A DNA stretch of 64,000 nt from NCBI GenBank assembly GCA_014762645.1, contig JABURP010000108.1, positions 23,267-87,266 on the forward strand. Direction: 5' to 3'. This stretch comes from Crocinitomicaceae bacterium (GTDB taxonomy: Bacteria; Bacteroidota; Bacteroidia; Flavobacteriales_D; Crocinitomicaceae). Position 1 is the stretch's first letter; each line of letters begins with the position of its first letter. A program made the translations under genes and the position numbers. Of the stretch, positions 54,880 to 58,227 are shown one piece after another. Below the pieces are notes generated by a model. That model was not told the origin of the DNA. It searched no databases and saw nothing but the letters and a program-made list of their open reading frames with translations.

Positions 54880-55347
54880 TTAGTAGGGCCCTACAATACA
54901 AGCAAGAAAGGCCAGTGATAATATATTTTCTCCTTCTATGGTAATTATGCAATCTGAACTGAAATTCGAGTCTCCGGCATATACTTTATTATCCTCATAA
55001 GTGAGTACGCAGCTGGTAGAAAAGGTAGAGTTACCACGGTACACTTTGTTATCTTCAATAGTATATATTATATCGTTGCTGAAGGTAGAAGATCCGCGAT
55101 ATACCTTGTTATCCTTAATTGTATATAGACAATCAAATGTCATGGTAGAATTTCCGTGGTACACTTTGTTGTCTTCTAAGCGGAGGATAACAATATTATC
55201 AAATACACCATCTCCCGAATAAACGAGGTTATCTTTAATGGTATAAGCAATATCGCTATCAAAGGTCGAATCTCCCATATACAGTCTGATTTGGGAGAAT
55301 GACACCGTGGCAAATACAGAAATGATAAGTGTTGATAGAATCTTCAC
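54880..55347 (-). CDS. Secreted protein made of six 20-residue repeats
   Basis: This 155-residue protein starts with GTG and has a signal peptide (KILSTLIISVFATVSFSQ). The mature part is six back-to-back copies of a 20-residue unit close to VYRGNSTFSNDIIYTIEDNK, covering about residues 20-140, and ends in a hydrophobic tail (LSLAFLACIVGPY). The pattern predicts a small beta-solenoid. A TACTTTTG box ends five bases before the GTG. It may be co-transcribed with the DUF819 gene nine bases downstream. Family not recognised with certainty. Confidence 0.8.
   Translation of the reverse strand: MKILSTLIISVFATVSFSQIRLYMGDSTFDSDIAYTIKDNLVYSGDGVFDNIVILRLEDNKVYHGNSTMTFDCLYTIKDNKVYRGSSTFSNDIIYTIEDNKVYRGNSTFSTSCVLTYEDNKVYAGDSNFSSDCIITIEGENILSLAFLACIVGPY
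54927..55290. repeat. Six tandem 60-bp coding repeats
   Basis: Diverged copies of a 60-base unit in the minus-strand gene at 54880-55347, each coding for a variant of VYxGxSTFSxDxIYTIEDNK. They are visible at DNA level as repeated tacactttgtt/tataccttgtt blocks. Confidence 0.8.
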
Positions 55348-55454: not shown

Positions 55455-56516
55455 ATGGAAAAGATCATATCAGGAATTCAGCAAATGGGAATTGGCGTAC
55501 CGAACGTACAGGAGATCTGGAAATGGTACCGGGAGATGTTTGGTATTGATGTACGTATTTTTGAAGAAGCAGCTGAAGCTCCTTTGATGATTGATTATAC
55601 CGGTGGCAAAGTACAGAGCAGAACTGCTACGCTTGCCTTGAGTATGGAAAGTGGCGGTGGAATGGAAATTTGGCAATACACCAGTAGAGATACAGAAAAA
55701 GCGGATTTTGATATTCAGTTGGGAGATTATGGTTTATACTCCTGCAGAATTAAATCCAGAGATGTTGAGGCATCCTACAATTTTCATAAATCTAAAAGTG
55801 TGAAGATCTTAGGTGGACTTCATAAAGCCCCTAATGGCGACCTCAATTATTTTTTAGAAGACCCGAATGGTAACATCTTCAATATTGTTCCGGGTGAAGG
55901 TTGGTTTGTAGATACAGGACACCCTGCTAAAACTGGAGGAGTAGCCGGTGTTATGATTGGCTGTAGTGATATTGATAAATCCCTTAAGTTATACCAGGAT
56001 ATTTTAGGCTATAACTGGAAAGTATATGATAGTAAAGGAGTATTTGAAGATTTTTCAGGATTGCCTGGAGGAGATCAAAACTTCAGAAGAGTATTACTGG
56101 CCCATGATGAAGAGCGCATGGGTCCTTTTTCCAAACTTCTGGGGCCGACCAAAATTGAATTGGTTCAACCCATAGACAGAACCGGTAAGAAAATCTTTGA
56201 AAACCGATTTTGGGGTGATTGGGGATTTATCCATCTCTGCTTTGACGTTCGTGGAATGGAAGCGCTCAAAAAAGAATGCGAAGCCGCAGGTTTTCCTTTT
56301 ACTGTAGATAGTGGTGATACCTTTGACATGGGTGAAGCAGGAGGAAGATTCTCATACATTGAAGATCCAGATGGTGCCTGGATTGAGTTCGTAGAAACTC
56401 ACAAGGTACCGGTAATGAAAAAGATCGGATGGTATCTAAACCTTAAAAACCGAAACCCCAAGAAAAGACTTCCGAACTGGATGTTGAAAGCCATGGCCAT
56501 GAACAGGGTCAAGTAA
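55455..56516 (+). CDS. Two-domain VOC family protein (glyoxalase/dioxygenase fold)
   Basis: This 353-residue cytoplasmic protein carries two vicinal-oxygen-chelate domains. The first starts GIQQMGIGVPNVQEIWKWYR and ends YFLEDPNGNIFNIV; the second starts [20 protein letters not shown] and ends FSYIEDPDGAWIEFVETHKV. The late Glu (WIEFVE) and His (FIHLCFDV) positions could bind metal. The architecture recalls extradiol dioxygenases and glyoxalase-like enzymes; the reaction cannot be assigned. It meets the channel gene with no gap between stops. Confidence 0.88.
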   Translation: MEKIISGIQQMGIGVPNVQEIWKWYREMFGIDVRIFEEAAEAPLMIDYTGGKVQSRTATLALSMESGGGMEIWQYTSRDTEKADFDIQLGDYGLYSCRIKSRDVEASYNFHKSKSVKILGGLHKAPNGDLNYFLEDPNGNIFNIVPGEGWFVDTGHPAKTGGVAGVMIGCSDIDKSLKLYQDILGYNWKVYDSKGVFEDFSGLPGGDQNFRRVLLAHDEERMGPFSKLLGPTKIELVQPIDRTGKKIFENRFWGDWGFIHLCFDVRGMEALKKECEAAGFPFTVDSGDTFDMGEAGGRFSYIEDPDGAWIEFVETHKVPVMKKIGWYLNLKNRNPKKRLPNWMLKAMAMNRVK

Positions 56517-58175
56517 CTAACGAAGTATCTTCCGAACAAAAGCAACGGTGAAGTAGGACATTAAAAATACTCCTACCCATCCTTCAACAGCTGAAATAAC
56601 CCTGCACCAATTGGTAGGGTAATAATCCCCGTAACCAATAGTAAAAAAGGTTATAGCACTATGGTACAAAGACTTTTGATGCATTGTGAGATTATCTGTT
56701 GCACCAACTGAATTGATTATTTCCCCCAGACCACCAAATTGCAGTACAACATAGATTCCTGCAAAGGCGAATATGGCAACCACCATACTTAAAAATACCC
56801 GGTTTGGACTCGTAGCAAATAGTCCCATCTTATCAAAAACGATCGATTTCAAGTAATAAAGGAACATGATGACAGGTTTCATGAACCCATATCTTTCCAT
56901 GCTACTCTTCCGCTTTGTCTTGTGTTCATAACGCTTGAAATACACGTATGCCCAATCTTCATCTGAGTATTGACCATTTTTGGTAAAGTTGTCTTTGATG
57001 ACATTGAACTGCTCCGCTATATCCTCATACGTCTCCTCCTTTTGACGTAAAATCAAATCCCTTACCTGATTTCTGCGCCAGTCAATAATGATTTTTCCAA
57101 GATTTTTAGTTCCCTTAAGTTTTAGAATTTTGAGTGATTCTCTCTTGGGGAAATTCAAATCAGTAATTGAATGTAAATACGAGTCTGAGAGATCAATTTC
57201 CTCCGCTTTTTTAACGCGGAGATCAAGCGTTGAACGCACATCTGAATTTGCTATGCTCAACTTTTCCGCAATACAGGATTCGAAAGATATGTTTCGGCAC
57301 CCAAAACTGATATGATCAAAATTTGCCTCTTCTTTCCCGAAGTCCGTTCGTCTGAACGTTAAATCCCCACCTTCAAACTTTGATAATCTAAAGGTAAGTT
57401 TACCGGTAGACATTTCAGACTCCTCAAAGGTAATGTGGCCCGAACCAAAAAGTGAACGCCTAAAATCAATCTTGCCCTCACCCCAAATCACACGTCTAAA
57501 ATCTAAAACAGGACCGTTAAATTTTATCTTCTCAAAAGCCTTGGTACCAGGCCCAAATTCTGCAAAATGAAACTTTACTTTACAAAAATTAAAGTTGACA
57601 CGTTTGAAATTAACTGTCTCAGCGAAGATAGATGCATTGATAAAAGACACTAATTCACCGTTGAAATTCGAATTTTCAAAATTCAATTTATCACATTCAA
57701 ACTCGGCATATTGAAAAAGTGTTTGGTGCGAATGGAATGCACAATCCGAGAAGTCCGTATATGAATTTCTGAACTCTGCATGTATGAAATTTAGTGAACC
57801 ATGCGAAAAAACGGCATGATCAAATGACACATCTGCATCAAAACGGACATAAGAAAAATCGGTATAGGCGTCACAATCAAAAAAAGCACTACGCGCTGAC
57901 AACCCATGAATAATAATAACCTCCTTATCTTCTAAATGTCGGGTTCTTCGGTATTCATTGATAGAAAAATCCTTGATATAGCAGTTATCAAGATGAAGCG
58001 CTCGTCCAGCATCCAGATGGTTGTAAATGGTTTCAACATCCACATAAGCCAAATATCGTTCGCGTATCTTTTTCTGGGCATAGAACTCCACCACCTTGAC
58101 AGATCGCTTATAATGGACACCATCAAAATCAATGGACTCGTCCAGGATTTCAATCTCGTAGAAAATTTGACTCAT
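56517..58175 (-). CDS. Beta-helix (pentapeptide-like) protein fused to a two-helix K+ channel pore
   Basis: The start is ATG 58175 (MSQIFYEIEILDESIDF); the track's TTG at 58205 adds ten residues. This gives 552 residues. Residues of about 90-330 are repetitive, with regular Phe and Asn (FSYVRFDADVSFDHAVFS, YTDFSDCAFHSHQTLFQYAE), the pattern of a pentapeptide-type right-handed beta-helix. The C-terminus has TM1 (VFLSMVVAIFAFAGIYVVL), a pore loop with FFTIGYGDYYP (about 511) and TM2 (GVFLMSYFTVAFVRKI). The GYGD filter predicts K+ selectivity. Confidence 0.85.
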   Translation of the reverse strand: MSQIFYEIEILDESIDFDGVHYKRSVKVVEFYAQKKIRERYLAYVDVETIYNHLDAGRALHLDNCYIKDFSINEYRRTRHLEDKEVIIIHGLSARSAFFDCDAYTDFSYVRFDADVSFDHAVFSHGSLNFIHAEFRNSYTDFSDCAFHSHQTLFQYAEFECDKLNFENSNFNGELVSFINASIFAETVNFKRVNFNFCKVKFHFAEFGPGTKAFEKIKFNGPVLDFRRVIWGEGKIDFRRSLFGSGHITFEESEMSTGKLTFRLSKFEGGDLTFRRTDFGKEEANFDHISFGCRNISFESCIAEKLSIANSDVRSTLDLRVKKAEEIDLSDSYLHSITDLNFPKRESLKILKLKGTKNLGKIIIDWRRNQVRDLILRQKEETYEDIAEQFNVIKDNFTKNGQYSDEDWAYVYFKRYEHKTKRKSSMERYGFMKPVIMFLYYLKSIVFDKMGLFATSPNRVFLSMVVAIFAFAGIYVVLQFGGLGEIINSVGATDNLTMHQKSLYHSAITFFTIGYGDYYPTNWCRVISAVEGWVGVFLMSYFTVAFVRKILR

Positions 58176-58227
58176 GAATTGGATTTGGCAACTAAATTTA
58201 GCCAAAATGAGGAATAATCAAAGGAAA

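Follow-up and report, generated by a model that had tools for sequence, protein, structure and literature searches.

The stretch of DNA analysed here (the window), 64,000 nucleotides from a contig of a Crocinitomicaceae bacterium, carries on its reverse strand a complete gene for a predicted beta-solenoid channel of 552 residues (positions 56517..58175), with an intact open reading frame that is free of internal stops and whose two ends match those of its relatives. The start was placed at an ATG at 58175, where close relatives also begin, although the reading frame contains a TTG at 58205 as well. The gene ends in a TAG (56519..56517) that lies directly 3' of the TAA of a convergent glyoxalase/VOC gene (55455-56516), and the location of both stop codons bears out an earlier note on this DNA, according to which the two genes meet with no bases between their stops. 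An operon involving the VOC gene was rejected because the two genes are convergent; the abutting VOC gene is kept in immediate relatives only (at locus L017 another gene intervenes), and its adjacency is no evidence of a functional link with the channel. Upstream, on the same strand as the channel gene, lies aroC, at a distance of 52 bases, an arrangement also found at L017 (51 bases) and L018 (33 bases), and a scan for promoters and terminators returned none exceeding shuffled sequences. The possibility of a chance ORF or a mis-join was rejected, since relatives from many genomes share the same full-length layout. Elsewhere in the window (54880-55347, reverse strand) is encoded a small protein that matches the 6-fold beta flower family (Bflower_3, E 1e-36) and contains internal repeats of the form DNKVYxGxSTF.

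The protein begins with a mixed alpha/beta cap domain (residues 1-95; 57891..58175, reverse strand, as are all features of the gene given below), defined from AlphaFold2 (AF2) models, which contains neither a signal peptide nor a transmembrane (TM) segment and has no match in the divergent paralogues L015 and L016. The region that follows (residues ~96-365; 57081..57890) is predicted by AF2 with high confidence to be a beta-solenoid, and Pfam matches Pentapeptide_3 (PF13576) over residues 130-181, above the cut-off (E 6.6e-9; 36.3 bits, cut-off 27). Structure prediction, which the earlier note had proposed as a check, indeed yielded a beta-helix, with a pLDDT of 94.2 and a pTM of 0.90 for residues 1-380 modelled alone, so that the first refuting condition of the note, an N-terminal region of another fold, does not apply. 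The full-length model, built with 48 relatives (pLDDT 89), predicts solenoid strands to about residue 363, helices at 371-450, TM1 at 457-481, a pore helix at 498-512 and TM2 at 523-551; this monomer model defines the fold of each domain with more certainty than the position of the solenoid relative to the pore (pTM 0.90 for the domain, 0.75 for the full length).

Period analysis of the solenoid reveals seventeen 12-residue units in a row (residues 103-306; 57258..57869), with the consensus xVxFxxAxFGxG and two Phe each, which in the first row fall close to positions 5 and 10 and in later rows to positions 4 and 9. The autocorrelation of Phe at lag 12 over residues 96-300 is 0.60, a value reached by none of 10,000 shuffles (highest 0.31), and in the family alignment lags of 12, 24 and 36 give 0.77, 0.76 and 0.70. 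Tandem five-residue A(D/N)LxX units with 20-residue coils are absent, the period being strictly 12; the unit is thus a dodecapeptide, in a region that is pentapeptide-like in its Phe stacking. The earlier description of a pentapeptide-like beta-helix of about 240 residues therefore stands with regard to the fold and requires amendment with regard to the unit (12 residues, not 5) and the extent, the 12-mers covering 204 residues within a predicted solenoid of ~270, preceded by the separate mixed domain of ~95 residues. In a Pfam scan of 48 members, 23 display a Pentapeptide match at E <= 0.01. The length of the solenoid is nearly fixed across the family (270-296 residues), which speaks for a definite shape and against a loose spacer, and the domain is net acidic, with a family mean of -8. 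When the solenoid domain alone was searched with Foldseek, the best match was MfpA, which it resembles, as it does Qnr, in its Phe-stacked solenoid and its Pentapeptide_3 match, and from which it differs by its 12-residue unit and its fusion to a membrane channel. This match is weak (E 0.039; TM 0.31 of the target), so that no solved structure can be matched with confidence to this particular subtype of solenoid.

After the solenoid comes a helical linker (residues 366-429; 56889..57080) with the nearly invariant pattern QF..LK..F...GxYxDEDxAYxxFKRxE, followed by an amphipathic, slide-like pre-TM1 helix (residues 430-456; 56808..56888) that ends in FDKxGLYATxPxRV. TM1 (residues 457-481; 56733..56807) was assigned from the AF2 model and the family alignment, while the pore helix and the selectivity filter TIGYGD (residues 498-517, with the filter at 512-517; 56625..56684) are supported by Pfam, AF2 and an alignment with KcsA. 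TM2 (residues 523-551; 56523..56609) bears the invariant pattern EGxxG..F.M.YF.V..VRK.LR, and the protein ends at its inner end; in essentially every relative the residue equivalent to R552, immediately after TM2, closes the chain. The Pfam match to Ion_trans_2 (PF07885) spans residues 465-550 (E 4e-10; 39.9 bits, cut-off 22.5), which together with the AF2 helices upholds the earlier claim of a linker followed by a two-helix pore with a TIGYGD filter. The two TM helices and P-loop with a T-[VI]-G-Y-G-[DE] filter, characteristic of a K+ channel pore, are thus present; Ion_trans_2 was matched in all 48 members scanned, and the filter reads [FL]T[IV]GYG[DE] in 47 of 48 relatives, the remaining one having GFGD. 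Across 48 sequences as divergent as 35%, invariant residues include Q389, G401, E406, D407 and Y410 in the linker, and E531, G532, G535, F537, M539, Y541, F542, V544, V547, R548, K549, L551 and R552 in TM2. No hydrophobic segment precedes residue ~435, there is no signal sequence, and basic residues lie at the C-terminal end; the solenoid is consequently predicted to be cytoplasmic, in keeping with the earlier suggestion that the beta-helix occupies the position of a cytoplasmic sensor or scaffold.

In sequence-profile comparison the pore matches Kir7.1 best (E 2.5e-5), and resemblance to Kir7.1 and KirBac includes the interfacial helix before TM1 and a basic motif where TM2 reaches the inner side (FVRKxLR, compared with FVAKIAR in Kir); Kir channels, however, possess after TM2 their own C-terminal, immunoglobulin-like cytoplasmic domain, which is absent here. 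The KcsA and MthK pores share with the solenoid channel the 2TM architecture, the TxGYGD filter and the position equivalent to Gly99, an established gating hinge in KcsA. In an alignment with KcsA counted by hand, Gly535 falls at Gly99 and Arg525 at Arg89, whereas Ile508 takes the position of Glu71, and the solenoid channel also differs from KcsA and MthK in lacking a C-terminal helical bundle or RCK domain.

A scan of genome contigs identified 309 loci encoding relatives, and the best 80 of the 309, which were retained, come nearly all from Bacteroidota metagenome-assembled genomes, with a few labelled Chlorobiota or Verrucomicrobia; the layout therefore recurs in Bacteroidota, a point that the earlier note had left to be checked. 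The channel is present in 14 of the 59 taxonomically nearest genomes and in each of the four genomes examined from the window's genus, its own among them, while among 297 well-completed genomes sampled evenly across the phylum the full-length protein was found in the window's own genome only, which indicates a patchy distribution centred on uncultured lineages. In a tree of 78 proteins, the branching agrees with taxonomic order (two changes for Flavobacteriales and one for Bacteroidales, against about 14 with shuffled labels), as fits mainly vertical descent. Many members of the Bacteroidales type follow an AddB-like gene and have housekeeping genes nearby, as assigned by reading the sequences, and no constant partner gene emerged across the neighbourhoods examined. 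Recent horizontal transfer, or residence in a mobile defence island, is not supported, given the agreement of the tree with taxonomy and the housekeeping neighbours. One relative (L014; G025:C18:23495-24997) contains two in-frame stops, one TGA and one TAA, and is apparently a decaying copy.

The family profile also matched, through the pore only, members of a cousin family in other Bacteroidota, represented by L106:2179-3849, L107:1978-3909, L108:1948-3735, L109:1871-3736 (-) and L110:826-2454 (+), and present in 7 of the 297 genomes of the phylum. These proteins, of 543-644 residues, begin with a hydrophobic, signal-peptide-like N terminus and a Phe/Cys-rich repetitive region, for which Pfam did not confirm a beta-helix. 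The same linker and TM1 follow; an insert with an extra hydrophobic segment, ~100 residues long but smaller in L110, separates them from a T-L-G-[YF]-G-[EN] pore and TM2; a profile comparison aligns them with the solenoid-channel family over residues 291-551, collinear except for the insert (E 5.5e-17). If the signal peptide is functional, the repeat domain would be periplasmic and the extra helix would restore the orientation of the pore, so that the sequences suggest a predicted periplasmic sensor with topology compensation. Two further Bacteroidota channels, both on the forward strand, retain the same YGxxP-TM1-pore core behind different N-terminal modules, L111:851-2245 with a possible short repeat region and L112:703-1935 with no repeat recognised. 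The linker and pore are thus common to families whose N-terminal modules differ, as expected of a module that couples an input to the channel. It is possible, although we consider it somewhat doubtful, that these proteins form a widespread and distinct class of K+ channels in prokaryotes, with a beta-solenoid that controls gating entirely from the N-terminal side, and with a sensor that is cytoplasmic here, periplasmic in the cousins of the same phylum, and has moved across the membrane during evolution.

Outside the phylum, a tblastn search of plasmid records detected haloarchaeal and Aeromonas caviae proteins in which Ion_trans_2 comes after Pfam pentapeptide repeats (for example WP_226024059.1, WP_168654377.1 and WP_081461395.1), annotated, where an annotation is given, only as pentapeptide repeat-containing or potassium channel family proteins. 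One of the records concerned, NZ_AP026896.1 (L097), is 4.94 Mb long and filed as an Aeromonas caviae plasmid, and is probably a chromosome or mislabelled. The order of elements in these proteins is the same, with a repeat solenoid, a helical linker, a GYGExPxRV/ATSPxRV interface and a 2TM pore with termination at TM2; their pore and pre-TM1 interface are homologous to those of the Bacteroidota family (hhalign E 1.4e-19), with 25% identity to the Bacteroidota channel in the pore, and in BLASTP the Aeromonas protein is collinear with the Bacteroidota channel over about 250 residues. In contrast, their repeats are true pentapeptide repeats (PF00805), variable in number, and they have no such N-terminal cap. 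The general layout is therefore not unique and already lies in databases. The earlier statement that no characterised channel has this layout must be qualified to that extent, and also because the nearest solved structure is HalA, a structurally characterised channel of the Hailong anti-phage system that has a soluble regulatory domain; it otherwise holds, in that neither the open literature nor a PDB sequence search yielded a characterised channel with the exact layout, and no paper on a pentapeptide or solenoid-channel fusion was found in open full-text literature. As far as the open literature tells, this is a real channel class that is present in databases and has not been described.

Most characterised prokaryotic K+ channels, which are modular proteins, are gated C-terminally (by RCK, cNMP or Kir domains) or by voltage. 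Here nothing follows TM2, so no C-terminal domain of the RCK, cNMP or Kir type can gate the channel and, given the invariant linker and pre-TM1 interface, control must reach the pore from the N-terminal side. The reading that we favour, with somewhat better than even confidence, is that of a homotetrameric, K+-selective channel of the inner membrane whose N-terminal cytoplasmic beta-solenoid serves as a regulatory domain; the gene, the order of its domains, the K+-type filter, the lack of a C-terminal domain and the conservation of linker and TM2 are observed and the fold is predicted, whereas tetramerization, K+ conduction, the cytoplasmic location and gating by the solenoid are all inferred. 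Four solenoids would be suspended beneath the membrane, where binding of a cytoplasmic ligand, a nucleic acid or a protein, or a change in solenoid packing, could act as the trigger. The signal would then travel along the helical linker and, by way of the interfacial helix before TM1, reach TM1 and TM2, and a gate at the TM2 bundle would open or close around the Gly535 hinge. The solenoid is probably the part that opens or closes the pore; its conservation and that of the pre-TM1 region could equally reflect assembly or anchoring.

In another reading, the solenoid is a structural scaffold, either a clamp for the tetramer, a cap that covers the inner mouth from the cytoplasmic side or a docking surface, in a channel that is constitutive or regulated elsewhere. 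Pentapeptide-type solenoids of the Qnr/MfpA kind are established protein-binding or DNA-mimic surfaces, and both the weak MfpA match and the acidic character of the solenoid agree with such a role; yet the linker, invariant and charged, and the helix at the interface point to mechanical coupling, and N-terminal modules vary among relatives while linker and pore persist, which makes a scaffold rather unlikely. Compatible with solenoid gating, and about as improbable as the scaffold, is the proposal of a K+ homeostasis valve that works with cation/H+ exchange in osmotic or pH adaptation. It draws on a Na_H_Exchanger gene that is convergent with the channel gene and abuts it, with between -9 and 14 bases separating the two, at 11 of the 77 loci, in two separate subclades (L019, L020, L024, L025, L027, L033, L034, L040, L041, L045 and L062), one of the two exchangers scanned (that of L024) having a cNMP domain, and on the distant relatives in haloarchaea. 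Convergent genes, however, are not co-transcribed, the pairing occurs in a single part of the tree and is absent from the window, where the neighbours are aroC and the glyoxalase gene, and the same genome encodes TrkH and three other PF07885 channels.

A further possibility, the least likely of those weighed here, is an effector akin to HalA of the Hailong system, in which the N-terminal domain binds a nucleic-acid or nucleotide signal and the channel is held shut or opened in phage defence. HalA likewise combines a soluble domain with a K+-channel-like pore, and its crown domain reportedly binds DNA and gates the pore. When the full-length model was compared with the PDB, the best fold match was HalA with oligodeoxyadenylate (9nyi_A; E 9.3e-4, probability 1.00, 413 columns), ahead of plain K+ channels, for which E was at least 0.09. 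HalA has been described as a channel that is blocked by poly-dA, the product of HalB (PMC13275509). Against this stand the low TM-scores of the match (0.22/0.34) and its rmsd of 15 A, the absence of HalA from the 50 best fold matches of the solenoid alone and from the matches listed (best 60) in PDB sequence searches, and the failure of a motif search of 594 neighbouring ORFs to reveal a HalB-type nucleotidyltransferase beside the channel, its three matches, one of which is the window's glyoxalase, appearing incidental. PADLOC, whose library is older than Hailong, gave no defence match for the query and 48 relatives, and the housekeeping neighbours and the tree also speak against a defence role; a phage collection and a viral fold library contained no viral protein with the solenoid-plus-pore layout. 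Because the match to HalA is not recovered with the solenoid on its own and the neighbourhoods showed no HalB-like partner, the channel is not assigned to Hailong, and HalA may best be regarded as an analogy of function and a lead for testing rather than a sign of membership.

Should the solenoid-gated reading prove true, an N-terminal beta-solenoid would be the only possible controller of a channel whose chain ends at the inner gate, providing a clean system in which to study how force enters through TM1 alone, and pentapeptide-like solenoids would acquire a new role. The fold match to HalA makes gating by a nucleic acid or a nucleotide a directly testable idea. The design of solenoid plus pore is encoded by hundreds of uncultured Bacteroidota and, in a distant form, by salt-loving archaea.
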